Position numbers and translations under genes: made by a program. Below, one piece after another: positions 52,864-64,000 of a DNA stretch of 64,000 nucleotides. The stretch comes from Actinomycetes bacterium (GTDB lineage Bacteria; Actinomycetota; Actinomycetes; Nanopelagicales; Nanopelagicaceae), in contig OX376642.1 of NCBI GenBank assembly GCA_947383695.1, positions 1,178,001 to 1,242,000 on the forward strand, in the 5' to 3' direction. How positions within the stretch are numbered: the stretch's first letter is position 1; each line of letters begins with the position of its first letter. Below the pieces are notes generated by a model. It was not told the DNA's origin. It ran no database searches and was given only the letters and a program-made list of their open reading frames with translations.

Positions 52864-53760
52864 TTACCCCTTGGTTGAGCCGAGTGTTAAGCCTGAAACA
52901 AACTGCTTGCGCAGTACAAAGAAGACGATAAGGGTAGGCAGCGCTGCGATAGTCGCACCAGCTGCCAAGAGGTTGTAATCCGTTACAAATTCACCCTGCA
53001 GTCGGCCAAGCGCCGAGGTAATCGGACGTTTTGAATCCGAGGACATCAGAACAAGTGCCCAGAAGAAGTCGTTGTAAATCCACGTAGTCATAAGTACGCC
53101 CAATGAAGCTAGCGCTGGACGAAGCAAAGGCAACATCACCTTTGTGTAGTGGGTGAAGACGCTAGCGCCATCAACCATTGCTGACTCGCTGATTTCCTTT
53201 GGAACTGTCTTCATATAACTTGAAAGAACAAATGTTGCAAAGCCCATCTGGAATGCAACGTGAATCAAAACAACACCCCATGGTGAGTCATACAAAAGGC
53301 GCGGAATTCCAACAGCCTTTCCTAAGGTGATGTACATCTTGAAAACTGGAATGAAAACTAATTGTGCTGGAAGCAGGTTTCCTGCTGTGAAAAGTAGCAA
53401 CAGCGAAACATTCCACTTGAATGAGTAACGGCTAACCACGAATGCAATAAGTGAGCCAAAGAAGAGTGTTAGCGCAACAGCAGGAATTGTGATCGCTGCT
53501 GTGTTCCAGAAGTACAAAGGCAGATCCATACGAGAGATTGCTTCTGTGTAGTTATCTAGATTTAAAGTTTTTGGAATTGAGAAGAGGCCATTTGCACGTA
53601 CATCCTTGTAGGGACGCAATGAAGTCCAGATCGTCCACGCAATTGGGAAGATCCAAACAATTGCGAAGATACCGATGAAGCCAGAGATAAAACGGTCCTT
53701 GACCTTCTGCTTGTTCTTGTACTTAGCAGCCGCTTGTGCGAGTTCTAGATCTACGCTCAT
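52864..53760 (-). CDS. Carbohydrate ABC transporter permease (MalG type)
   Basis: Inner-membrane permease of the CUT1 family, 298 aa with six hydrophobic segments. The EAA loop reads SAMVDGASVFTHYTKVMLPLLRPALASLGV, the ATPase docking site. The partner permease overlaps by 4 bp. No ATPase gene is present in the operon, so a shared MsmK/UgpC-like ATPase elsewhere is likely. The sugar is unknown. Confidence 0.93.
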   Translation of the reverse strand: MSVDLELAQAAAKYKNKQKVKDRFISGFIGIFAIVWIFPIAWTIWTSLRPYKDVRANGLFSIPKTLNLDNYTEAISRMDLPLYFWNTAAITIPAVALTLFFGSLIAFVVSRYSFKWNVSLLLLFTAGNLLPAQLVFIPVFKMYITLGKAVGIPRLLYDSPWGVVLIHVAFQMGFATFVLSSYMKTVPKEISESAMVDGASVFTHYTKVMLPLLRPALASLGVLMTTWIYNDFFWALVLMSSDSKRPITSALGRLQGEFVTDYNLLAAGATIAALPTLIVFFVLRKQFVSGLTLGSTKG

Positions 53761-54671
53761 TGGACATCACTCTTAAAGGTTGCTCGTAGGTAGGCAATAA
53801 TCGGTCCGATCGAAAGAACAAAGAGAATAACGGCGTAGGCCGCACCCTTCATGGATGCGCCTTCTCCAGCGATGTTTTGGAAAACCAAGGTACCCAAAAT
53901 CGGGAAGCCAGCTGAAGAGCCATAAATAATGTAAACAATGTCGAATGCACGTAGGGATTCGATGATTGTAATAACGATAACGATGATGTTTACCGGCTTC
54001 ATTGAAGGGAAAACAACCTTCTTGAAGGTCTGCCATTCAGTGGCTCCATCAAGGGATGCGGCTTCACGTAGCGCTGAATCAACTGACTTGAGGCCAGCTA
54101 AGTACAAAAGCATGATGTAACCAATATGTCGCCACGAGGCGATGGTCAAAATGACATAAATATTGATGTCGTAATTACCAAAAAATGAAATTGCATTATC
54201 GATATCGCGACCAAAGAGGCCGTTAACAAAGCCATCTGGGCGAAGTAAGAAGTTCCAGATAATTCCAGTAACTGCAAGTGAAAGCACAACCGGTAGGTAG
54301 TACGCGGTTTCATAAAACTTATGTCCGCGGATCTGACGATCAATTTGGTATGCAAGCAAAATTCCTAGCGGGGTTGCAATTAATGCAAACCAGCCCAACC
54401 AAATAACATTGTTCTTGAGACCTTCCCAGAACGCAGGGGTGTCAAAGAAAATATTTTGGTAGTTAGCTAGTCCAGCCCATTTGATTCGGCTGATTGAAAT
54501 ACCGGACCAGTATGTAAATGAAAGAAGAATTGTTAATACCGCTGGAATCCAAACAAGTAACAAGTGGAAGAAGAGCGGAATACCTACGAATGCACCTAGT
54601 GTTGTGCGATCTGCCTTGGAAAAGGCTCGACGGCGAGAGACTTTAGTGATGTCTTTCGCCGTCGAGCTCAT
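53757..54671 (-). CDS. Carbohydrate ABC transporter permease (MalF/UgpA type)
   Basis: CUT1-family permease of 304 aa with six membrane segments. Its EAA loop reads EAASLDGATEWQTFKKVVFPSMKPVN. It overlaps the MalG-type gene by 4 bp. It is preceded by a 51-bp gap after the binding-protein gene that contains a 15-bp AT-rich palindrome. Confidence 0.93.
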   Translation of the reverse strand: MSSTAKDITKVSRRRAFSKADRTTLGAFVGIPLFFHLLLVWIPAVLTILLSFTYWSGISISRIKWAGLANYQNIFFDTPAFWEGLKNNVIWLGWFALIATPLGILLAYQIDRQIRGHKFYETAYYLPVVLSLAVTGIIWNFLLRPDGFVNGLFGRDIDNAISFFGNYDINIYVILTIASWRHIGYIMLLYLAGLKSVDSALREAASLDGATEWQTFKKVVFPSMKPVNIIVIVITIIESLRAFDIVYIIYGSSAGFPILGTLVFQNIAGEGASMKGAAYAVILFVLSIGPIIAYLRATFKSDVQ

Positions 54672-54702
54672 ACTTGTAACCCTATCTCTAATTAATCCAA
54701 TA

Positions 54703-54717
54703 TAACTAATTTAGTTA
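54703..54717. promoter_or_regulatory. AT-rich palindrome between the binding-protein and permease genes
   Basis: TAACTAA-T-TTAGTTA, a perfect 7-bp inverted repeat around one base. The one-base centre cannot form an RNA loop, so if functional it is a protein-binding site. It could also be chance in an AT-rich gap. Confidence 0.3.
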
Positions 54718-54722
54718 ACGAA

Positions 54723-56042
54723 TTAAGCTAGAGGAGGAAGTGCTTCCCATTGTGATTGCAAAGTATCTTGGATCTTTGCAACATCCTTTGGATTCTTGAA
54801 CCATGACTGGATTGCTGGACCAACAACTGGGCCTGCAAAGTCTGGACGAGTATCGCGATCAAGGAACTGAGTGATGTACTTGGCTTCTGCCATAACAGCA
54901 AGTTGTTCCTTCTGGAATGGGTCGTATGTTGATGTGTCCTGGCCACTGTTTGCTGATGTCATTGGAATAAGAGCTCCGTTTGCATCCTTAGCAGCAAGTG
55001 TTGCGTTCACACCTTCCATGTCGCCAGCAAACTTCAAGAAGTCTGCTCCGCCATCATTATTTGTACCGTTTGCAGCTACACACCAACCATCGATAGGTGC
55101 ATCGATAGTGTCGCGGCCGTGCTCTGGGTTAATTTCTGGGAATGGAATGATTGAAAGGTCAGCGTAATCAGCTTCTGACTGCTCCTTGAAGTTTCCACCG
55201 AACCATGAACCCATAAGCATTGATCCAGCCTTCTTCTGTAGAAGAAGCTGCATAGCTCCATCCCACTCGAGATCTAGAACGTTTGGATTCATGTATGGAA
55301 GCAACTCAGCCCAGTGTGAGAACACATCTGTAACCTTTGCATCTGTCCACTTTTCGCGACCAGCAAGTAGGTCTACGTGGAACTGGTAACCATTAACGCG
55401 AGCGTTGATGATGTCGAATGTTCCCATTGCTTCCCAACCGCCCTTATCTCCGGCAGCGAAACCAACAAGACCCTTCTTCTTCATACCATCAAGCATCTTT
55501 AGGTATTCATCCCAGTTTGTTACGTTGTCTGCATTCAATCCCAAGTCTGCGAACATTGACTTACGGAAGTGAAGACCCCATGGGTACCAAGACTTTGGAA
55601 CGAAGTACTGCTTGCCATCAAGACCAGTTGAAGCGATCTTGTAGCTCTCTGAGTACTGATCGCCAATTGCGTCCCATACGCCAGTTAGATCTGCAAGCAG
55701 ACCCTGCTCTGCGAAGAACTGCATGCGATATCCAGCCATCCACTCAAAAGTATCGTCAGGTGTTCCCTGTAGATACTGTGAGAGGTTGTTCTGGAATGCA
55801 TTTGACTCAGTTGCGTTGTACTTAACTTCGTTGCCTGTCTTTGCTGTGTACGCAGCAATTAAAGCTTCGTTTTGTGCAGTAGGACCTGCATCTACAGAGC
55901 GAGCTCCGTATGCAAGTGGACCTGTTGCTTTGTCACCGCAGCCTGCAAGTAGAGATCCACCTGCTGCGATTCCTAAACCACCAACTGCAGCACCCTTAAG
56001 TACTGAGCGGCGGGAAATGCCATTATTTAGATCTGACATCAT
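54723..56042 (-). CDS. Extracellular carbohydrate-binding lipoprotein of an ABC transporter
   Basis: Family 1-type solute-binding protein of 439 aa. The N-terminus has a twin-arginine-like motif SRRSVLKG, a hydrophobic stretch and the lipobox LLAGC with Cys35 as the lipid-modified residue. The mature part resembles sugar receptors (GTPDDTFEWMAGYRMQFFAEQGLLADLT, KYFVPKSW-type QYFVPKSWYPWG, GSWFGGNFKEQ). The twin-Arg signal suggests export of the folded protein. It heads the binding protein-permease-permease-oxidoreductase operon. Confidence 0.93.
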   Translation of the reverse strand: MMSDLNNGISRRSVLKGAAVGGLGIAAGGSLLAGCGDKATGPLAYGARSVDAGPTAQNEALIAAYTAKTGNEVKYNATESNAFQNNLSQYLQGTPDDTFEWMAGYRMQFFAEQGLLADLTGVWDAIGDQYSESYKIASTGLDGKQYFVPKSWYPWGLHFRKSMFADLGLNADNVTNWDEYLKMLDGMKKKGLVGFAAGDKGGWEAMGTFDIINARVNGYQFHVDLLAGREKWTDAKVTDVFSHWAELLPYMNPNVLDLEWDGAMQLLLQKKAGSMLMGSWFGGNFKEQSEADYADLSIIPFPEINPEHGRDTIDAPIDGWCVAANGTNNDGGADFLKFAGDMEGVNATLAAKDANGALIPMTSANSGQDTSTYDPFQKEQLAVMAEAKYITQFLDRDTRPDFAGPVVGPAIQSWFKNPKDVAKIQDTLQSQWEALPPLA

Positions 56043-56201: not shown

Positions 56202-56372
56202 TTATGCGCCTTTTCCGAAGAGTTTGCTGAAGAAACCGGGCTCCTTGGGGTCATTGGCATGGCCCTGACAGCGATCCTTCTTTGCCACACCTTTCAGGGC
56301 TATTTCGATGTGTTGGCCACACCCTGACCAGCTCGGCTTTCCACATTTACGACAGGTAGTTCTACTGCACAT
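56202..56372 (-). CDS. Cys-rich microprotein, paralogue of the one at 58310-58423
   Basis: A 56-aa protein from ATG 56372 (MCSRTTCRKCGKPSWSGCGQ); the longer in-frame reading to 56438 runs into the upstream flavoprotein gene and is rejected. Cysteines at 2, 7, 10, 18 and 35 and histidines at 21 and 38 suggest a zinc- or iron-binding site. About two thirds of the first 36 residues are identical to the 37-aa microprotein at the operon start. A Lys/Phe-rich tail (GFFSKLFGKGA) could be amphipathic. It lies 16 bp after the CoA-disulfide reductase/rhodanese gene. I recognise no characterised family. Confidence 0.8.
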   Translation of the reverse strand: MCSRTTCRKCGKPSWSGCGQHIEIALKGVAKKDRCQGHANDPKEPGFFSKLFGKGA

Positions 56373-56388
56373 CTTTTTCTCTTTTCTC

Positions 56389-58017
56389 TTATTTGCTCGC
56401 AGCTGGAGAGTTGCTCCAGGTGAGATATCCGCCATCAAGATTTACTGCATTGAACCCAAGCTCTTTAAGGAGCATCGATCCTGTATGTCCGCGCAAGCCA
56501 ACTTGGCAATTTACCAAAAGATTTCTGTTAGTTAATTCCTTATACCGATCACGAATTTCATCAACTGGAATGTTGATAGCACCAGGAATGATTCCTCTAC
56601 CACACTCAGCTTCAGAACGAACATCTAGTAGTTCGTAACCATTTTCGCGATACTCATCAATCTGATGCCACTGAGCAACCTTTGAGACTCCTGACAAAAC
56701 GTTTTCGGCCACATACCCCAACATGTTTACGGGATCTTTTGCCGAACCAAATGGAGGTGCATAAGCAAGTTCTAGATCAGCAAGCTCAGGTGCAGTTATT
56801 CCTCCACGCATCGCAGTTGCAATGACATCGATTCGCTTATCTACTCCCTCAATACCAACGCCTTGAGCTCCAAGAATTTCACCTGACTTGGGATCAAAGA
56901 TAAGTTTCAAAGTCATTTGCTTTGCATCTGGGTAGTAACCAGCATGTGAGTTTGGATGAATGTGAATAGCTTGATGCGGAATGTTTGCCGCTTTAAGTCG
57001 CTTTTCATTCCAACCTGTAGTTGCAATCATGAGATCAAAGACTTTAACAATTGCGGTTCCGATAGTTTTTACTGGTCGAACAGTTAAACCACAGATGTGA
57101 TCTGCAACTACGCGACCATGACGATTTGCTAGGTTTGCCAGTGGAACCAGCGTTGCATTTCCATCAAGTGCATCAGTCTTTTCGGCGGCATCGCCAACCG
57201 CGTAAATATCAGCGTTACTTGTGCGATTGAACTCATCAACTTTGATTCCGTTGCGGGTACCAATATCAAGCCCAGCAGCCTTAGCTAGGCCAATCTCAGG
57301 GCGAACTCCGATTGCCAAGATAACTATCTCCGCTGGCAAAACATCTCCATTGGAAAGTTCTACTGAATTCGGAGTTATATTCACAACGCTGGCACCGAGA
57401 CGAAGATCCACATTGTGTGAACGCATTTCTTGTGCAACTAAGGTTGCAAGTTCTGGATCTAAAGGCATCAAGACTTGATCAGTTGCTTCAACTAATGCGG
57501 TTGGAATCTTGCGGTGAACAAGGTTTTCAGCGATTTCAACACCGATAAATCCACCGCCAATGACAACAGCACTTGCTGGTTTTTTACCAACACTTGCAGC
57601 AATCTTTTCAACATCTTCAACTGTTCTCAGTGTCATACCACGTTCAATTCCAGGAATAGGTGGGACGACAGGAGATGCACCTGGGCTCAAAATTAATTTG
57701 TCATAATCAAGTTCATCAGTTTGACCCGTAATGAGATTCTTGATTGCTACAACTTTCTTGCTGGGATTAATTGCAAGAACTTCTGTACTTACCCGAACAT
57801 CCAAGCGAAAACGTGCATGCAGGCTTGCAGGTGTCTGTAACAAGAGATCCTTTTCCTCTTCAATCACTCCACCTACGTAATATGGCAAGCCACAATTGGC
57901 ATAGGAAACGTGCCCGCTTTTTTCGAGAACAATAATTTCCGCTGATTCATCTAAGCGACGCAGGCGAGTTGCGGCTGACATTCCTCCCGCAACACCACCA
58001 ATAATGATTGCGCGCAT
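56389..58017 (-). CDS. CoA-disulfide reductase/rhodanese fusion (CoADR-Rhd)
   Basis: FAD- and NAD(P)H-dependent disulfide/persulfide reductase with a C-terminal sulfurtransferase domain, 542 aa. FAD motif IIGGVAGGMSAATRLRR at the N-terminus; the single redox Cys42 is in SYANCGLPYYVGG, typical of CoADR and Npsr, which use CoA. NAD motif VVIGGGFIGVEIAENL at mid-protein. The rhodanese domain (residues about 455-542) has the catalytic Cys504 in VNCQVGLRGH. Such fusions reduce CoA persulfide or polysulfide and release sulfide. It lies 2 bp after the regulator gene in the same operon. Confidence 0.92.
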   Translation of the reverse strand: MRAIIIGGVAGGMSAATRLRRLDESAEIIVLEKSGHVSYANCGLPYYVGGVIEEEKDLLLQTPASLHARFRLDVRVSTEVLAINPSKKVVAIKNLITGQTDELDYDKLILSPGASPVVPPIPGIERGMTLRTVEDVEKIAASVGKKPASAVVIGGGFIGVEIAENLVHRKIPTALVEATDQVLMPLDPELATLVAQEMRSHNVDLRLGASVVNITPNSVELSNGDVLPAEIVILAIGVRPEIGLAKAAGLDIGTRNGIKVDEFNRTSNADIYAVGDAAEKTDALDGNATLVPLANLANRHGRVVADHICGLTVRPVKTIGTAIVKVFDLMIATTGWNEKRLKAANIPHQAIHIHPNSHAGYYPDAKQMTLKLIFDPKSGEILGAQGVGIEGVDKRIDVIATAMRGGITAPELADLELAYAPPFGSAKDPVNMLGYVAENVLSGVSKVAQWHQIDEYRENGYELLDVRSEAECGRGIIPGAINIPVDEIRDRYKELTNRNLLVNCQVGLRGHTGSMLLKELGFNAVNLDGGYLTWSNSPAASK

Positions 58018-58019
58018 GC

Positions 58020-58307
58020 TTATGCCAGGCTTAGGAATAGTTTTTGGAGCTGTGCGGTGACCGCATCAGAGTTGTTCTTTCCTTCAACGATGCATTCTTT
58101 AAGACTGGCAGAGATCAATGTAAAGGCTGCTGTATTTACCGCCTTAGAAACGGCTGACATCTGCGTCACGATCTCATCGCAGTTTCGGCCTTCTTCTAGC
58201 ATTCTTGCGACAGCGCCTAACTGTCCCTGTGCGCGCTTGATTCTCTTTGCAATTGCCACGATCTGTTCTTCATCCGATAGAACATGTGCGATTTTCTTGG
58301 TAGCCAT
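58020..58307 (-). CDS. CsoR/CstR-family repressor, predicted persulfide-sensing type
   Basis: A DUF156/CsoR four-helix DNA-binding protein, 95 aa from ATG 58307 (an earlier ATG at 58316 overlaps the microprotein stop). IAKRIKRAQGQLGAVARMLEEGRNCDEIVTQMSAVSKAV is the family core. Cys43 and Cys72 are 29 residues apart, as in both CsoR and CstR; at the position of the CsoR copper-ligand His (Cys43 + 25) there is Ser68. The missing His argues against copper and for a CstR-like persulfide sensor. It is linked to a CoADR-rhodanese gene, and its likely operator lies in the operon promoter. Confidence 0.9.
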   Translation of the reverse strand: MATKKIAHVLSDEEQIVAIAKRIKRAQGQLGAVARMLEEGRNCDEIVTQMSAVSKAVNTAAFTLISASLKECIVEGKNNSDAVTAQLQKLFLSLA

Positions 58308-58309
58308 GA

Positions 58310-58423
58310 TTAGCACTTACAACGATCTGCTTCAGCTACGCCGGCTAGCGCTTCTTCAATGTGCTGGCCGCATCCTGACCAAGTGACTTTCTTACATACA
58401 TTGCAGGTTACTGGTGAACACAT
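58310..58423 (-). CDS. Cys-rich microprotein at the head of the persulfide operon
   Basis: A 37-aa protein read directly: MCSPVTCNVCKKVTWSGCGQ, then HIEEALAGVAEADRCKC. Cysteines at 2, 7, 10, 18, 35 and 37 and His21. SD AAGGGG lies 7 nt before the ATG, and the stop is 2 nt before the regulator ATG, so it is translated as the first gene of the operon. It shares about two thirds identity with the 56-aa protein at the other end. The pattern C-x4-C-x2-C-x4-W-x2-C-x2-H...RC is kept in both. A sulfur carrier or metal-binding role is inference. Confidence 0.82.
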   Translation of the reverse strand: MCSPVTCNVCKKVTWSGCGQHIEEALAGVAEADRCKC

Positions 58424-58462
58424 GGTTTTTCCCCTTAGTTTTGTACCTAAGGAAAACCTACC

Positions 58463-58485
58463 ATACCCCCGGGGGTATATGTCAA
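58463..58485 (-). promoter_or_regulatory. CsoR/CstR-type operator within the persulfide-operon promoter
   Basis: ATACCCCCGGGGGTAT (58463-58478) is a perfect 16-bp palindrome of the CsoR-family type (TACCC and GGGTA half-sites). It starts 2 bp after a consensus -35 TTGACA (58480-58485, minus strand), so it lies in the promoter spacer, where a bound repressor would block RNA polymerase. The -10 is not sharp; TAGGTT lies 19 bp from the -35. The -35 overlaps the stop of the upstream suyZ gene. Autoregulation by the downstream repressor is predicted. Confidence 0.85.
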
Positions 58486-59474
58486 AGACCGGTTATTTTT
58501 ACCGCTGCGAGAGCTACCCCAGCCACAATCACCCAGGCAATCATTCCCATAGCCATTGGGCGTGGGCCGATGGCGCGAATCGCCTTCCAGCGAACCCCTG
58601 AACCCAATGCAACTAATCCTGCGCCAAGCATTAACTTACTTACTAGAACAATGTCGCCGTGCAGACGATCATTGATATCAATGATGTTGTTTAGAGTCGC
58701 AACAGCTATAAACCCAAGTACAAAGTAAGGAATCAAAGGAACTTTTGCGGTTGCCACCTCTTGCTTACCTTGTGATGTTAACCAGCGACGGTGGCGTAAA
58801 GACAAGATCAAAACAATAGGAGCAAGTAAACAAACGCGGGAAAGCTTTACAACGATTGCATACTTATCTGCATCATCTCCCCATACAGATGCTGTTGCTA
58901 CCACTTGACCAACATCGTGGACCGCCGCACCTGCCCACGCACCAAACTCTCGGGTATCCAAATTCAAGGCATGCCCAATCAAAGGCAGTACAAAGATTGA
59001 AAGAGTTCCGCACAATGAAATCAAACCAATTGCATACGATGTTTCTTCTTCAGTTGCACGCGTCTGCGGCTTGATCGCAGCAACAGCGGTTGCTCCACAA
59101 ACTCCAAATCCAACACCGATCAACAGTCCAAGTTCACCAGACATCTTGAACAGCTTTGATAATCCAAGAATTCCAAAGATTGTAAAGGTCACAACAATTA
59201 CAACTGTTATTACGCCTTTGAGGCCGATCTCCTTTAGCGACACAACACTTACTTGTGCACCCAGAAGAGCAACACCAATCCGCATAATTGTTTTGCTAGA
59301 AACTTTGGTCGCAGGAGCAGCAAATGCTGGCCACTGTGCAAAGTTTGCAACTAAGAATCCAAAAGCCACACATAATGCAAGCGGGCTAATTGCCGACTGC
59401 ATCTGATTAATTTGAAATGCAATAGCAACCAATACACCAATTAAGCCAAAGCCTGGTGCGTAGGTTTTAACCAT
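58482..59474 (-). CDS. suyZ: YeiH-family (UPF0324) exporter, predicted sulfite/sulfate exporter of sulfolactate degradation
   Basis: Integral membrane protein of 330 aa with about ten hydrophobic helices. GVALLGAQVSVVSLKEIG, GVGFGVCGATAVAAIKPQTRATEEETSYAIGLIS and AGAAVHDVGQVVATASVWG are the YeiH/UPF0324 blocks. Members beside suyAB have been proposed to export the sulfite or sulfate released from sulfolactate (SuyZ). Here it is the last gene of the suyAB-slcC-comC operon, starting directly after the comC stop. The gene name rests on this context. Confidence 0.8.
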   Translation of the reverse strand: MVKTYAPGFGLIGVLVAIAFQINQMQSAISPLALCVAFGFLVANFAQWPAFAAPATKVSSKTIMRIGVALLGAQVSVVSLKEIGLKGVITVVIVVTFTIFGILGLSKLFKMSGELGLLIGVGFGVCGATAVAAIKPQTRATEEETSYAIGLISLCGTLSIFVLPLIGHALNLDTREFGAWAGAAVHDVGQVVATASVWGDDADKYAIVVKLSRVCLLAPIVLILSLRHRRWLTSQGKQEVATAKVPLIPYFVLGFIAVATLNNIIDINDRLHGDIVLVSKLMLGAGLVALGSGVRWKAIRAIGPRPMAMGMIAWVIVAGVALAAVKITGL

Positions 59475-60461
59475 TTAGAAGCCCAGCTGCGCAAAGACTT
59501 GATCGGTAATGGTTATTTCATCATCAAGATTGAGCTTTTCTGGGTTCACACGGTTGGCCCCAGGTAGCCGTCCGCCTGCGGCATTGACCTCTGAAACAAA
59601 CTCATTGGTGCGGTTATTTGCACCATCTACCGACAATTTAGCCGCATCGATTGCGATGACAAAGTGTGAAATGTGTTGAGGCATCGCATCTTGGCTAGCG
59701 GCAAACATATCTGGAATATTCTTTGCAAGGGTTGGACCGATCAACATTCCGGTTAATGATTCAACAAGGACTGCAACTGCATAACCCTTAACACCACCAA
59801 GTGGTGCAAGCATTCCGGCAAGTGCTTCCTTTGCATCGGTTGTTGGTGCACCATCTTTGGTAAATGCCCATCCTGGTTCTAACTCTGCACCAGCTTGTGC
59901 TTTCGCCTGAATCTTTCCTCGCGCAACTGCGCTAGTTGCAAGATCTACAACTGTTGGAGGATTTGTTGGAATACCTGCTGCAAGTGGTGATGTAGAAAGC
60001 AGCGCTTTGTTTCCACCCCATGGTGGCATAACAGCAGGTCCTGTACTAAATGCAATTCCGACTAAGCCACGATTAATCATTGGCCAGACATAAATTCCAA
60101 GAGCACCACAGTGATTTGAGCGACCAACACCAACAGCTGCAATTCCATTGACCATTGCGCGTTCTGCTGCAACCTCTGCAGCATGTTGTAGCTGCCAATG
60201 TCCCAAACCATCATCACCATCAAAGACAACAAGGCTAGGCAAATCTGTAACGGTTTTTAGTTGGGCATTTGGCTTGATTCCACCTGCTTGTAAACGAGAG
60301 AGATAAAAGGGCAGACGCATTAATCCGTGGCTACCAATCCCCCAACGATCACTAGCAACAATGCAGCGTGCAGTTGTTGCGGCATGTTCTGTTGGAACAC
60401 CAGCGGCTTCAAGCAAAGTTTGTGCTTTTGTGATCGCTGAACCAACAGTTAGCTGAGGCAT
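59475..60461 (-). CDS. comC: Predicted (R)-sulfolactate dehydrogenase (ComC type, malate/L-lactate dehydrogenase family)
   Basis: NAD(P)-dependent oxidoreductase of the LDH2/MDH2 fold, 328 aa. SDRWGIGSHGLMRLPFYLSRLQAG with the substrate Arg and His, VGVGRSNHCGALGIYVWPM, and LLSTSPLAAGIPTNPPTVVDLATSAVARGKI with the cofactor contacts are the family blocks. ComC oxidises or reduces (R)-sulfolactate/sulfopyruvate; closely related enzymes act on malate, ureidoglycolate or delta-pyrroline carboxylate. The neighbours slcC and suyAB support the sulfolactate call. It lies directly after slcC and directly before suyZ. Confidence 0.83.
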   Translation of the reverse strand: MPQLTVGSAITKAQTLLEAAGVPTEHAATTARCIVASDRWGIGSHGLMRLPFYLSRLQAGGIKPNAQLKTVTDLPSLVVFDGDDGLGHWQLQHAAEVAAERAMVNGIAAVGVGRSNHCGALGIYVWPMINRGLVGIAFSTGPAVMPPWGGNKALLSTSPLAAGIPTNPPTVVDLATSAVARGKIQAKAQAGAELEPGWAFTKDGAPTTDAKEALAGMLAPLGGVKGYAVAVLVESLTGMLIGPTLAKNIPDMFAASQDAMPQHISHFVIAIDAAKLSVDGANNRTNEFVSEVNAAGGRLPGANRVNPEKLNLDDEITITDQVFAQLGF

Positions 60462-61400
60462 TTAATTACTACTTTCCTTTAACGCCCCCACTGCATGGGT
60501 GGCAGGCTTTGAGTTCAACACTAATTCAATATTTGCGGTCAAGATCTGATTAATACGAAGCTGGCTTTCCTTAGTTATTCCTGCGACGTGTGGAGTCAGA
60601 ATTAGGTTTGGAATTGTTTCCATCTCGCCCTTGGTTGGAGGCTCTTGGGCACGTACATCTAGTGCAGCCCCAGCAATGGTTTTAGCCTTTAAAGCGGCCA
60701 TTAAGTCCGCCTCGTTAATGACCTCGCCACGACCAACATTGACGATGATCGCATCGGACTTCATAAGGCTAAGTGTCTGCGCATTGATCGTTCCGTTGGT
60801 TTCTGGTGTTGAAGGCATATGAATACTGACAACATCGCTGCGCTTTAAAACATCTTGAAAGGTAGTTAATTCAATTCCTGAAAGGTTCTTTGCATAAGGA
60901 TCAAAGCCAATAACCTGACAGTTAAAACCTTGAATGAGCTTGGCGGTTGCAACACCTGTTGCACCACATCCCAATAATCCCCAGGTTAAACCAGAAAGTT
61001 CGCGGCCTGGTGTACGAACCCAGCCACCGTCTCGGGTTGCAACATCATGTCCTGGAATATTGCGCAGTAGTGAAAGCGCAAGGCCAAGTGTTAATTCACC
61101 AACGCTAACCGCGTTTGCACCAAGACCTGCAACAACTACTACACCTGCAGCATCTGCTGCCTTTAAATCTATATTGTCTAAACCAACACCAGCGCGAGCA
61201 ATTACCTTTAACTTAGGTGCAGCTGCAATTACATCTGCAGTGACCTTGGTTCGATTGCGTACAACAAGTGCGGTTGCATCCTTAAGTGCTGCTTTGAGCT
61301 CTTCAGGGTTACTCCACAAATCATCATTACGAGTAATGGGAAAACTCCCTTCCAGTGCTTGGAAGGGAGTTCCCCATACATCTTCAGAAATCAGAATCAT
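60462..61400 (-). CDS. slcC: Predicted (S)-sulfolactate dehydrogenase (SlcC type, D-isomer 2-hydroxyacid dehydrogenase family)
   Basis: A SerA-like oxidoreductase of 312 aa. KVIARAGVGLDNIDLKAADAAGV, the NAD motif GLLGCGATGVATAKL, GRGEVINEADLMAAL and the catalytic His in LTPHVAGITKE are all present. It lacks the regulatory ACT domain of biosynthetic phosphoglycerate dehydrogenase. In Chromohalobacter salexigens the (S)-sulfolactate dehydrogenase SlcC of this family works with ComC to convert (S)- to (R)-sulfolactate via sulfopyruvate. Its ATG overlaps the suyB stop by one base. Confidence 0.83.
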   Translation of the reverse strand: MILISEDVWGTPFQALEGSFPITRNDDLWSNPEELKAALKDATALVVRNRTKVTADVIAAAPKLKVIARAGVGLDNIDLKAADAAGVVVVAGLGANAVSVGELTLGLALSLLRNIPGHDVATRDGGWVRTPGRELSGLTWGLLGCGATGVATAKLIQGFNCQVIGFDPYAKNLSGIELTTFQDVLKRSDVVSIHMPSTPETNGTINAQTLSLMKSDAIIVNVGRGEVINEADLMAALKAKTIAGAALDVRAQEPPTKGEMETIPNLILTPHVAGITKESQLRINQILTANIELVLNSKPATHAVGALKESSN

Positions 61401-62566
61401 TATGCAGAGATGTACAACTTCGTGAATGTGAATTCGCGGTGACCCATAACCTCAGCCTTACATAGACGACCGTTAACAGTGTCATAAATGACATCCATCA
61501 TCATGTCGCCAGCCTTCTTAAGGTCATACTCGTAACGAAGCAAACCTGAAACATCAAGATCGATGTGCTCAGTCATTGACTTAGCAGTCTTGATATTTGC
61601 AGTTAACTTCAAGACAGGAACGATTGGGTTACCAATAACATTTCCTTGTCCTGTTGGGAACAAGTGAATAACCGCTCCACCTGCTGCCATCAGAGTTACG
61701 CACTCTGCTGCTGCAGATGATGAATCCATGAAGTACAAGCCAGGGTTAGCTGGGTTAGGCATCTCTGCAGGCTTTAGAACGCCTACAACTGGCACTGAGC
61801 CAGTCTTTGCGATGTTTCCAAGCGCCTTCTCTTCAATAGTTGTTAAGCCACCAGCGATGTTTCCTTGTGTTGGCTGTGAACCAAGAAGGTTCGCACCAGT
61901 TGCTTCAATTACCTTGATGTAGTTGTCGTATGTTGTTTGGAACAACTCACGAGTTGCTGCATCAATGCAACGCTCAGCGATGAGGTGCTCGCCACCTGTT
62001 AGCTCTGAAGTTTCTCCAAAGAAAACAGATCCGCCAGCTTCGACCCAACGATCAACAGCTTGTGATGTAGTTGGGCAAGAACCTAGACCAGATGTTGTAT
62101 CTGACTCACCACACTTAACAGACATGATCATGTCGCCCATTTCAGCCTCTGTGCGAACAAGACCTGATGCATCTTGTAGGAACATCGCTGCTACGCGGCT
62201 AGCTTCTTGAATAACTTGTAGGTCACCCTTGCCTTCAATTGAAAATGCTGCGACTGGCTTTCCAGTCTTTGCAATTCCATCAGCAACACGTTGTGTCCAC
62301 TTTGGTTCGATACCAATAACAACAACCGCTGCAACGTTAGCGTTAACGCCAGTTCCAATAAGTGTGTCAAAAGTTAGTTGTAGATCTTCACCAAATTGCA
62401 GGCGACCAAATGCGTGAGGTAGTGCCATTGTTCCCGGAATAACCTTTGCAACAGCTTCTGCAGCTGCATTGGAAAGATCATCAAGAGGCAAAATAATTAC
62501 GTGATTGCGGATACCCATAGCGCCGTTTTCGCGGCGGTACCCCATTAAGCGCGGCTTGCTTCCCAT
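61400..62566 (-). CDS. suyB: (2R)-sulfolactate sulfo-lyase, large (beta) subunit
   Basis: Catalytic-type large subunit of the UxaA/altronate dehydratase superfamily, 388 aa. GYRRENGAMGIRNHVIILPLDDLSNAA, MALPHAFGRLQFGEDLQLTFDTLIGTG, VKCGESDTTSGLGSCPTTSQ and GETSELTGGEHL are the superfamily metal/substrate blocks; IPHxyGRLQFG and NxxGGLTTIEEKALGNI fit SuyB rather than altronate hydrolase. It releases sulfite from (R)-sulfolactate to give pyruvate. The ATG at 62566 has GAGGAG about 6 nt upstream and overlaps suyA by 22 bp. Confidence 0.9.
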   Translation of the reverse strand: MGSKPRLMGYRRENGAMGIRNHVIILPLDDLSNAAAEAVAKVIPGTMALPHAFGRLQFGEDLQLTFDTLIGTGVNANVAAVVVIGIEPKWTQRVADGIAKTGKPVAAFSIEGKGDLQVIQEASRVAAMFLQDASGLVRTEAEMGDMIMSVKCGESDTTSGLGSCPTTSQAVDRWVEAGGSVFFGETSELTGGEHLIAERCIDAATRELFQTTYDNYIKVIEATGANLLGSQPTQGNIAGGLTTIEEKALGNIAKTGSVPVVGVLKPAEMPNPANPGLYFMDSSSAAAECVTLMAAGGAVIHLFPTGQGNVIGNPIVPVLKLTANIKTAKSMTEHIDLDVSGLLRYEYDLKKAGDMMMDVIYDTVNGRLCKAEVMGHREFTFTKLYISA

Positions 62567-62847
62567 CGATAACTCCTCATGTTGTGTGTGTGAATGTAAT
62601 CGCCCTTTTTGATGGCAGCTGATGCAAGTCCGACTTTGATGCCGTACTTAATGATTGCGTCGCCCTCAGCAAGATCTGTGAGTGCAAATTTGTGTCCTAG
62701 TGGAATCGCGTGGTTAAGCACCGCGGTGCCCTCGGTTCCTTCCTTCACGGAACGACCGTGAAGAGTTCCTGGTTGCAGATCTTCCATCGCAACAGCGACA
62801 TTGTCGCCATCGTGGTGGAGCAGATACTGCGGTGGAGTTATTGCCAT
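62545..62847 (-). CDS. suyA: (2R)-sulfolactate sulfo-lyase, small (alpha) subunit
   Basis: SAF-domain small subunit, 100 aa from ATG 62847 (MAITPPQYLLHHDGDNVAVA); an upstream ATG at 62871 adds eight residues not found in relatives. AVLNHAIPLGHKFALTDLAEGDAIIKYGIKVGLASAAIKKGDYIHTHNM is the conserved SAF core, including the G-x-x-HG-type His region. In other dehydratases of this superfamily the SAF domain is fused or encoded next to the large subunit; here it is split, as in SuyAB. It heads the operon and is divergent from the MocA-type gene. Confidence 0.9.
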   Translation of the reverse strand: MAITPPQYLLHHDGDNVAVAMEDLQPGTLHGRSVKEGTEGTAVLNHAIPLGHKFALTDLAEGDAIIKYGIKVGLASAAIKKGDYIHTHNMRSYRWEASRA

Positions 62848-62881
62848 ATCTACACAAGCCTCTCTTCGCATATAAATGGGT

Positions 62882-62972
62882 AGTGGTCTGACCTCTTGCG
62901 GGAGTCTAGGACAGTTGAGCGTGTTTCGTCTACCCCCCTGCCCAAATTTCTTGAAGTGGTCTAACCTGTTGC
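62882..62972. repeat. 18-bp near-perfect direct repeat in the suyA/MocA divergent promoter region
   Basis: AGTGGTCTGACCTCTTGC (62882-62899) and AGTGGTCTAACCTGTTGC (62955-62972) match at 16 of 18 positions, 73 bp apart. The core GGTCTGACC is a palindrome around one base and resembles FadR-type (GntR/FCD) sites such as TGGTCNGACCA. The right copy overlaps a TAACCT -10 that would give a leaderless MocA transcript; the left copy lies just upstream of the AT-rich TTTATA before suyA. Joint control of both directions is inferred. Confidence 0.55.
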
Positions 62973-62973
62973 C

Positions 62974-64000
62974 ATGAAATCAGAGCTTCGGTACGGGATT
63001 ATCGGCGCGGGCAGCATGGGCCGCGAGCACATTGAGAACATCAAGGTCATGGGTGGAGCGACGGTCACAGCGATCAGCGACCCTCATACGCCATCTCAGG
63101 AGGCCGCCCTTGCGATGGCCCCAGGTGCCACAGTTTTCACCGATCATCGCGCTCTGCTGGAGTCAGGTTTGGTCGATGCCGTTGTTATCGCAACCCCTAA
63201 TGACACACATGCCGCGGTATTAAAGGATGTTCTGGAAAGTGATTTAGCGGTCTTTGTTGAAAAGCCACTTGCTACAACAGTTGAAGATTTGAAATCAATC
63301 CTTGCGTGGGATGAAAAGCGAAGCGCGATGACATGGATGGGTCTTGAGTACCGCTTCATGCCACCGGTTGCTGAAGCAATTGCTCGCGCCAAGGAAGGCG
63401 AAGCGGGAAAGATTCATCAAGTTTCAATCCGCGAACACCGCGAACCCTTTTACCCAAAGGTTGATAACTGGAATCGTTTTGCAGAGCGCACAGGTGGAAC
63501 CCTTGTTGAAAAGTGTTGCCACTACTTCAACTTGATGGACATCGTTGTTGGTGAACAACCTGTCCGAGTTTTTGCATCAGGTGGTCAAGCTGTTAATCAC
63601 TTAGATGAAAAGTACGATGGCACGCAAGCAGATATGTTGGACAACGCATATGTTGTTCTTGAGTATGCAAACGGTGCACGCGGAATGTTGGATCTGTGCA
63701 TGTTTGGCGAGGGATCATTTGATAAAGAGATCTTGACGATTGTTGGCGATGAAGGAAAGATCGAATCATTCCTGCCATCACAGGTACTACGTGCTTCACG
63801 TCGTGACTCAATTGGAAAGCTTTCAGGCTGGAAGACAGGTGCAGCACGAACTCCGGGTAGCGAACAAAAGATTATTCATAATTACGATGTGAAGTACATG
63901 GGTCACCACTACGGTGCCTCTTACATCGAACACACCAAGTTCCGTGATGCGATTCTTAACTCAACTCCAGCTGAAGTTACCCTGAAAGATGGTGTAACTA
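62974..64000 (+). CDS. Gfo/Idh/MocA-family oxidoreductase, 3' end cut by window
   Basis: NAD(P)-dependent dehydrogenase acting on sugars or inositol-type substrates. The visible 342 codons start MKSELRYGIIGAGSMGREHI with the Rossmann loop GAGSMG; ATPNDTHA and the EKPLATT motif (catalytic Lys) follow, then the C-terminal domain with GGTLVEKCCHYFNLMDIVVG, where the His replaces the usual G-x-L-x-D-x-x-x-H pattern closely. The ATG is 6 nt after TAACCT, with no SD, so a leaderless transcript is likely. The substrate is unknown; whether it serves sulfonate metabolism cannot be read. Confidence 0.88.
   Translation, partial: MKSELRYGIIGAGSMGREHIENIKVMGGATVTAISDPHTPSQEAALAMAPGATVFTDHRALLESGLVDAVVIATPNDTHAAVLKDVLESDLAVFVEKPLATTVEDLKSILAWDEKRSAMTWMGLEYRFMPPVAEAIARAKEGEAGKIHQVSIREHREPFYPKVDNWNRFAERTGGTLVEKCCHYFNLMDIVVGEQPVRVFASGGQAVNHLDEKYDGTQADMLDNAYVVLEYANGARGMLDLCMFGEGSFDKEILTIVGDEGKIESFLPSQVLRASRRDSIGKLSGWKTGAARTPGSEQKIIHNYDVKYMGHHYGASYIEHTKFRDAILNSTPAEVTLKDGVT

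Follow-up and report, generated by a model that had tools for sequence, protein, structure and literature searches.

A suyA-suyB-slcC-comC-suyZ operon as the probable C-S-cleaving end of a sulfoquinovose locus in an acI actinobacterium

Breakdown of sulfoquinovose (SQ), the head group of plant and algal sulfolipid, is usually split between two bacteria: one stops at sulfolactate or 2,3-dihydroxypropane-1-sulfonate (DHPS), the other cleaves the C-S bond. The presence of both halves in one bacterium has been termed unusual (PMC12421959). Five genes in the order suyA-suyB-slcC-comC-suyZ, found on the minus strand (58482-62847) of a 64,000-nucleotide stretch of actinobacterial DNA (G000:C1:1178001-1242000, hereafter the window; the single-contig genome has 1,431,431 bases and is listed as 99.86% complete), raise the question whether such an operon works on its own or completes a longer route. 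The original prediction described a self-contained sulfolactate operon; the genes stand, but a larger SQ locus that includes a GH188 gene starting at 62974 had been missed. We consider it highly probable that the operon does not stand alone but forms the terminal, C-S-cleaving half of an SQ catabolic locus that extends past the window end. All functions were assigned by homology, and reactions, stereochemistry, transport, regulation and the sulfolactaldehyde (SLA) step were inferred; what is seen here is gene homology, synteny, co-occurrence, a tree, active-site residues and conserved sites. The host is an acI/Planktophila-type actinobacterium, as had been proposed, since its SuyB is 97% identical to SuyB of the acI isolate IMCC19121 and of the single cell SCGC AAA044-N04. 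acI bacteria (Nanopelagicaceae) are tiny and very abundant freshwater actinobacteria, among the commonest in lakes; their gene set for converting a sulfosugar into pyruvate and sulfite looks almost complete, with the five-gene operon as the predicted last steps.

The five genes are real and had been placed correctly, with ends that abut or overlap. suyA (62545..62847, 100 aa) encodes the putative small SAF-domain subunit of an (R)-sulfolactate sulfo-lyase (SAF 22.8 bits, Pfam cut-off 21); its start is the ATG at 62847, and a further open ATG lies upstream at 62871. SuyA shares 46% identity with Rhodococcus koreensis SuyA and 37-43% with three proteobacterial SuyA, but also 41% and 33% with the N-domain proteins of two UxaA, so that the small subunit by itself is not diagnostic. 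The adjacent suyB (61400..62566, 388 aa) encodes the putative large subunit, with the GD_AH second domain (105 bits) and the C-terminal domain (264 bits); a separate small SAF protein next to a large GD_AH protein is the two-subunit make-up of SuyAB. slcC (60462..61400, 312 aa) encodes an (S)-sulfolactate dehydrogenase-like protein of the D-2-hydroxyacid dehydrogenase family (2-Hacid_dh 100 bits, 2-Hacid_dh_C 180 bits) that is 50% identical to the product of a Rhodococcus suy-operon gene and 37% to that of a Methylobacterium gene near suyAB. It carries R, E and H at the positions which we take to be usual for this family, and is best read as a D-2-hydroxyacid dehydrogenase in a suy context with the family's catalytic residues kept. 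comC (59475..60461, 328 aa) encodes an (R)-sulfolactate dehydrogenase-like member of the Ldh_2 family (315 bits), 54% identical to its Rhodococcus and 36% to its Methylobacterium counterpart; in the PDB the L-sulfolactate dehydrogenase 2x06 (E 6.4e-42) ranks third, behind 1vbi (malate/lactate dehydrogenase) and 3uoe (dehydrogenase). suyZ (58482..59474, 330 aa) encodes a putative YeiH-family exporter of sulfite or another sulfur anion (PF03601, 236 bits, cut-off 24.5), which is only 29% identical to the exporter adjoining suyAB in Paracoccus versutus. The association of SlcC and ComC with SuyAB was corroborated, as like genes lie near suyAB on the Rhodococcus plasmid and in Methylobacterium. 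The proposed BLASTP and HMM check of the five proteins thus gave a divided answer: the Pfam families were confirmed, but all five fell below the NCBIfam cut-offs. SuyA and SuyB matched only galactarate dehydratase (43 and 119 bits versus 731); the best model for SlcC was phosphoglycerate dehydrogenase (266 bits, below 454), with no NCBIfam SlcC model returned; for SuyZ it was the YeiH family TIGR00698 (166, below 232.6). ComC matched L-sulfolactate dehydrogenase NF040650 at 198 bits, and is graded as ComC-like only because it fails the equivalog cut-off of 500.

SuyB carries the assignment of the lyase. In a tree of 115 rows, 105 SuyB-type rows are separated from 10 UxaA/GarD rows by a branch with support 100. 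The tree was a quick one, its E. coli outgroup branches are very long and it came with a long-branch-join warning; the split also sets apart the closer outgroups, and most SuyB-type rows are so labelled by homology rather than by assay. A pre-set test of the original prediction by this tree did not refute it, SuyB lying outside the altronate and galactarate dehydratase clades. The host's family and three named acI-type loci (24 rows) form a clade with support 96, nested in a clade with other Actinomycetota (support 99). SuyB is 73% identical to the Rhodococcus protein and 56-61% to SuyB of Paracoccus, Cupriavidus and Methylobacterium, compared with 36-39% to UxaA, in a comparison set that contains neither of the characterised sequences from Paracoccus pantotrophus and Chromohalobacter. 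Among the best 40 of 314 plasmid records, 13 rows at 56-72% were followed by values of at most 38.8%. The high-identity group includes Cupriavidus, with suyAB near annotated hpsN and hpsO; Paracoccus versutus, with suyAB next to an exporter and an ABC transporter; and Rhodococcus koreensis, with suyAB alongside aldehyde dehydrogenase, 2-hydroxyacid dehydrogenase and Ldh genes. A search of viral_contigs with SuyB alone as query, which would detect only close relatives, gave no match. Clusters of this kind had been tied to Proteobacteria; they do occur there but are not confined to them, being present in Rhodococcus and other Actinomycetota. As part of the SQ reading, which we regard as highly probable as a whole, SuyAB is predicted to be an (R)-sulfolactate sulfo-lyase that releases pyruvate and sulfite.

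Divergently from suyA and continuing past the window end runs an sqgA-like gene for a GH188 NAD+-dependent sulfoquinovosidase (62974..64000, plus strand). The full protein (L003:975-2078) is a 367-aa member of the Gfo/Idh/MocA type, whose best PDB matches are 8qc3 and 8qc2 (E 8e-103 and 1e-102), followed by 8zn9 (1e-86), named merely 'Oxidoreductase, putative', and then by a value of 1e-26. 8QC2 and 8QC3 are the GH188 sulfoquinovosidases FlSqgA and ArSqgA, both NAD+-dependent (PMC10755693). Of nine residues named in that paper we located eight in ArSqgA, and seven of these eight are identical in the acI protein: the catalytic or SQ-binding Lys107, Tyr136, Arg166, Lys172, Glu189, His193 and His321 (ArSqgA numbering). 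Leu170, which binds via its backbone, is replaced by Tyr160; counted in this way, position 163 of ArSqgA, given as Glu163 in the paper, is not a Glu, and the Glu that follows it is conserved. The residue pattern including Tyr at the Leu170 position was identical in 20/20 aligned rows, and three GH188 proteins of genus g8 carry Y158.

About 12-19 kb past the window follow a sulfofructose-1-phosphate (SFP) aldolase, a sulfofructose (SF) kinase, a GntR/FCD regulator, a sugar ABC transporter (two permeases and a solute-binding protein) and an SftI/SqvD-type isomerase. The class I aldolase is 44% identical to E. coli YihT and finds the SFP aldolase 7ag1 as best PDB match (E 4e-74), the best entry of another class being a tagatose-bisphosphate aldolase (E 2e-19); NCBIfam matched tagatose aldolases and returned no SFP aldolase model. 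The PfkB kinase, only 30% identical to YihV, matches the SF kinase 7ag6 best (4e-28 versus 3e-21 for ketohexokinase), so that both proteins are closest to the enzymes of the Embden-Meyerhof-Parnas-type SQ route (sulfo-EMP). The isomerase, a FucI-family protein, has SftI sulfoquinovose isomerase as its sole NCBIfam match (E 4.5e-79, 266 bits versus a cut-off of 700), barely passes the Pfam fucose isomerase C-domain (29.6 versus 29.3) and has no credible PDB relative by sequence search. Conserved in it, down to an acidobacterial homologue of 27% identity, are His439/440 and the pair Glu302 and Asp326, which lie 24 residues from each other; this is the spacing that we take the metal ligands of FucI to have. 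A structure prediction from a three-sequence alignment (mean pLDDT 41.6) was not used. No YihS-type SQ isomerase was found in the cluster, the isomerase giving no blastp match to YihS; a genome-wide YihS search was not made. We call the route hybrid because its isomerase is of the SftI and not of the YihS type.

How regularly the two halves occur together was compared in two samples. In 20 relatives' loci, picked from SuyB matches to span genera, suyA-suyB-slcC stand in this order in 20/20, comC is present in 18/20 and suyZ in 17/20, the shorter loci stopping at a contig end; genes for a GntR regulator and a PfkB kinase lie upstream of the suy genes in all 20. The SFP aldolase, GH188 and suyA genes are neighbours in 16/20, with aldolase and GH188 directly upstream, and no SFP aldolase was seen in the other four (L055-L058, genera g8 and g13). 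The order-wide sample comprised 296 genomes: SuyB-clade genes (76-100% identity) occur in 64, the isomerase in 64 and both in 58. In the good subset (108 genomes with a completeness of 90% or more and a contamination of 5% or less) SuyB and the isomerase occur in the same 32 genomes, and neither is found without the other, counts that ignore shared ancestry; the 12 genomes with only one of the two are all among the less complete ones. The aldolase, at an identity of at least 74%, is present in 45/296 genomes and in 25 of the 32 good genomes with SuyB and isomerase, the remaining seven all belonging to genus g8. The g8/g13 loci L055-L058 contain the suy genes and the kinase, and the isomerase was seen in g8 and g13 genomes. 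At the level of sequence, the case for an SQ route is carried by this synteny, the tree and the co-occurrence.

The predicted pathway would begin with import of SQ-glycerol or SQ by the ABC sugar transporter and release of SQ by the GH188 enzyme. The SftI/SqvD-type isomerase would convert SQ to sulfofructose, the YihV-type kinase sulfofructose to sulfofructose-1-phosphate, and the YihT-type class I aldolase would split the latter into dihydroxyacetone phosphate (DHAP) and SLA. Oxidation of SLA to (S)-sulfolactate would fall to an aldehyde dehydrogenase, for which an unlinked GabD-like protein is a candidate; SlcC would then form sulfopyruvate, ComC (R)-sulfolactate and SuyAB pyruvate and sulfite, the sulfite leaving via SuyZ from a cell that is apparently unable to reduce it. 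In known systems SuyAB cuts (R)-sulfolactate, and SlcC and ComC convert the (S) to the (R) form (PMC9594981, PMC12421959). Both dehydrogenases would be present in the operon because SQ should yield (S)-sulfolactate.

For the SLA step, the nearest match in the host genome to the aldehyde dehydrogenase of the Rhodococcus suy operon is the unlinked GabD-like protein (L062, 37%), which perhaps acts as SLA dehydrogenase. It matches succinate semialdehyde dehydrogenases (SSADHs) and 8c54, which we take to be RlGabD, about equally, with 3ek1, an aldehyde dehydrogenase of unassigned type, ranking first. By eye, L062 keeps the Cys, Glu and both Arg proposed in PMC10599462, as do the SSADH sequences there. 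The phyletic pattern was discarded as a means of identifying a dedicated SLA dehydrogenase, the GabD-like protein being too widespread to discriminate. The host genome has a single HpsN match (32%), next to a gene of apparent histidinol-phosphate aminotransferase type (HisC-like), and DHPS as input was dropped on these grounds; of the two organosulfonate sources named originally, SQ is upheld by the neighbouring genes and DHPS is not.

As to the fate of sulfite, no PF01077 match (sulfite reductase) was found in the host genome (the control rang in 11/14), and the PAPS reductase family gave one match below its cut-off (20.2 versus 22.5 bits). Since no sulfite reductase was found, sulfite is probably exported, with SuyZ as the simplest path. 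acI bacteria have been reported to lack assimilatory sulfate reduction and to need reduced sulfur (PMC5301498). If the pathway runs, acI cells would draw carbon from the sulfolipid of algae and cyanobacteria and release sulfite back into the water, even though they are apparently unable to reduce it themselves and reportedly depend on reduced sulfur. Just downstream of suyZ lies an operon-like group on the minus strand (56202-58478), made up of a palindrome ATACCCCCGGGGGTAT at 58463-58478, a 37-aa ORF that is Cys-rich by eye, a CsoR-family repressor, a CoA-disulfide reductase fused to rhodanese, and another small Cys-rich ORF. The repressor has two Cys at a distance of 29 and lacks the copper-site His. 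We take the repressor to be CstR-like, and the group looks like a persulfide or sulfite stress control; repressor and reductase adjoin suyZ also in 2/20 relatives (L048, L049). CUT1-type ABC genes further downstream (52864-56042) were considered as SQ transporter and left unclaimed, as they lie near suyZ in only some relatives.

Two operator-like sites of the TGGTCTRACC type are located between suyA and the GH188 gene: TGGTCTGACC at 62884..62893 and TGGTCTAACC at 62957..62966, 7 bases before the GH188 start codon (both plus strand). In each, 10/10 columns are invariant across 18 rows, compared with 41/126 columns in the whole intergenic alignment and 21/106 outside both sites. TGGTCNNACC was found in 22/22 GH188 upstream rows, with 0.2 expected from mononucleotide shuffles that ignore relatedness. 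In genus g8, where GH188 leads a series of like-oriented genes, the isomerase and suy genes among them, a palindrome TGGTCTGACCA precedes it in 3/3 rows. The cluster's GntR/FCD regulator may act on the divergent suyA and GH188 promoters via the two sites. Promoter and terminator scans found no excess over shuffles (6 found versus 8.7 expected and 4 versus 7.6). TGGTC-type TGGTCNGACCA palindromes before the isomerase (6/15 rows) were rejected as operators, lying inside the coding regions of the isomerase or of an M24-like protein. A palindrome TGGTCGGACCA, which resembles the intergenic sites in its type of sequence, lies ~110 bases inside the isomerase coding region (L045, L049, L051, L054, L060 and others); several rows also have it in the final codons of the M24-like gene. 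Its recurrence probably reflects just conserved codons.

Several observations weigh against the SQ reading. A number of NCBIfam family matches, the isomerase's among them, lie below the curated cut-offs, and the co-occurrence counts ignore shared ancestry. In genus g8 no SFP aldolase match was obtained at E 1e-10 in 19/19 suy genomes, so the route there is not identical. The cluster lacks a recognizable SLA dehydrogenase, as none of the ORFs in the 20 loci had the Rhodococcus aldehyde dehydrogenase as its best match, and the GabD-like type occurs in 194/296 genomes at E 1e-170 and is thus non-specific. In the host genome the locus is interrupted by a block of ~10 kb that separates GH188 from the SFP aldolase. 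By inspection, this block (L003:2075-13742) is of a uronate/pectin type, with KdgK, KdgA, KduD, KduI and GH105-like proteins and an ABC transporter; it is absent from the 16 relatives' loci where GH188 and SFP aldolase adjoin. The motif TGGTCNGACC was found at seven places in the host genome (6 forward and 2 reverse matches), these 8 matches being hardly above the 5 of a reversed control (2 and 3). Common operators do not count among the evidence that ties both halves of the locus together; the conserved sites that stand are those between suyA and GH188 and, in g8, before GH188.

Two other readings are unlikely and fare about equally well. The operon could serve imported dissolved sulfolactate or DHPS made by other organisms, the proximity of SQ genes being incidental: the Cupriavidus and Paracoccus versutus neighbourhoods described above have such a look, and SlcC and ComC would be equally suited to external racemic sulfolactate. 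We judge this improbable, because an SQ-isomerase homologue accompanies the suy genes in 32/32 good genomes, HpsN is limited to the 32% match beside a his-type gene, and suyZ is the sole transporter gene in the five-gene operon, the downstream ABC genes being kept in some relatives only. With a similarly small chance, the substrate could be another 6-sulfosugar such as sulfofucose (6-deoxy-6-sulfogalactose), used via a FucI-type isomerase, sulfotagatose and a tagatose-bisphosphate-like aldolase before the Suy steps. The fucose isomerase C-domain of the isomerase fits this proposal, a tandem from sulfofucose to SuyAB is known in Paracoccus wurundjeri (PMC12421959), and the GH188 group with Tyr for Leu170 has been suggested, with its neighbourhood, as a possible new pathway (PMC11465081). 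However, the only NCBIfam match of the isomerase is to an SQ isomerase, the aldolase is far closer to SFP than to tagatose aldolases in the PDB (NCBIfam gives the latter), the residues with which GH188 contacts SQ are retained, the Glu at the C4-OH among them, and the P. wurundjeri route is Entner-Doudoroff-like rather than built on isomerase and kinase. Finally, a SuyAB homologue acting as sugar-acid dehydratase (altronate, galactarate or related) of the adjoining uronate-type block is scarcely credible: a KdgK/KdgA/KduI/KduD-like block does follow directly past GH188 in the host genome, the sole NCBIfam matches are to galactarate dehydratase and the only related PDB entry is GarD 6u7l, but the altronate/galactarate reading was rejected on the tree and on the gap between the identity of 73% to SuyB of the sulfonate-type Rhodococcus operon and that of 36-39% to UxaA, the order has separate UxaA-type paralogues (31-35%), and no such block intervenes in the 16 relatives' loci that show GH188 and aldolase side by side.

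Returning to the SQ reading, a more far-reaching version is conceivable, which we put forward tentatively and hold to be somewhat doubtful: that acI bacteria run a full SQ-to-sulfite hybrid route in one streamlined cell, composed of GH188, the SftI-type isomerase, the YihV/YihT-type kinase and aldolase, a housekeeping GabD-like SLA dehydrogenase and SlcC/ComC/SuyAB, and that an as yet unrecognised component of it is an M24/creatinase-like protein that lacks the usual metal-binding aspartates. The gene for this protein (L061:7986-9050; G000:C1:1260985-1262049) lies beside that of the isomerase; it occurs in 64/296 genomes and in 31/32 good genomes with suyB and isomerase. In a weak alignment, the two positions that we take to be metal-ligand Asp in methionine aminopeptidase are not Asp.

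Related arrangements were seen outside the order. In an Acidobacteria bacterium (BP7.bin24, L080) genes for a PFK-family kinase, an SftI-type isomerase (161 bits, below the cut-off), a GntR regulator, an SSADH-like aldehyde dehydrogenase, suyA, suyB, comC and slcC stand in a row, apparently an SQ-to-sulfite tandem in another phylum that includes an aldehyde dehydrogenase. The Rhodococcus koreensis plasmid (L004) carries suyAB, an aldehyde dehydrogenase, an MFS transporter, slcC- and comC-like genes and a 3-hydroxyisobutyrate-dehydrogenase-like protein, possibly of the DHPS dehydrogenase type, and is a candidate for a DHPS-to-sulfite operon in actinobacteria.

The acI cluster is not sighted here for the first time, as it was already listed for IMCC26103 by Backlund & Higgins 2024 (PMC11465081); IMCC26103 is an acI-A4 isolate (PMC5301498). 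Their 'Y160' cluster shares with the present one a GH188 protein with Tyr for Leu170, sulfolactate lyase alpha and beta, a phosphoglycerate dehydrogenase (PGDH)-like gene, SFP aldolase, SF kinase, a regulator, ABC transporters and fucose isomerase, and was suggested to represent a new sulfoglycolytic pathway (PMC11465081). The GH188 protein described here is of the Y160 type, and the g8 proteins with Y158 correspond to the second group of that study, whose loci, like those of g8, are without SFP aldolase (PMC11465081). The IMCC26103 list includes an SLA dehydrogenase that was not found in the cluster here and which, as a guess, may be the ComC gene (PMC11465081). In its available text the study makes no mention of acI, of racemisation by SlcC and ComC, of the relation to SftI, of the conserved sites or of co-occurrence across the order (PMC11465081). 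A survey of SQ genes in aquatic genomes is without 'Planktophila' or 'Nanopelag' in its main text (PMC13372026), and our literature search, with most subscription papers outside its scope, returned no paper pairing Planktophila with sulfolactate or sulfoquinovose.

Compared with known routes, the acI locus resembles the Arthrobacter sulfo-EMP pathway in its actinobacterial SF kinase, class I SFP aldolase and GH188 in place of GH31, but in Arthrobacter the isomerase is of the YihS type, SlaB is used and sulfolactate is excreted (PMC10755693; PMC12890257), whereas the acI locus has an SftI/SqvD-type isomerase and would go on to sulfite by suyAB-slcC-comC. The SqvD/SftI-type isomerase of the fucose isomerase family is shared with sulfo-EMP2 and the transaldolase (sulfo-TAL) and transketolase (sulfo-TK) routes, in contrast to the kinase and aldolase, which are YihV/YihT-type and not SqiK/SqiA (PMC9594981); neither a transaldolase nor a transketolase was seen in the acI cluster. 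The SlcC/ComC-SuyAB route of Chromohalobacter and Paracoccus has the same four proteins and converts (S)- to (R)-sulfolactate before cleavage (PMC9594981, PMC12421959), but starts from external sulfolactate or, in P. wurundjeri, from sulfofucose by an Entner-Doudoroff (ED)-type route, with a similar gap at the SLA dehydrogenase (PMC12421959). Hybrid sulfo-EMP1/2 combinations have already been described in general terms (PMC12890257). Newly added here are the lack of a cluster SLA dehydrogenase, the conserved intergenic sites, the co-inherited M24-like protein, the SftI relationship, the identity of the host and the coupling of both halves with their order-wide co-occurrence.

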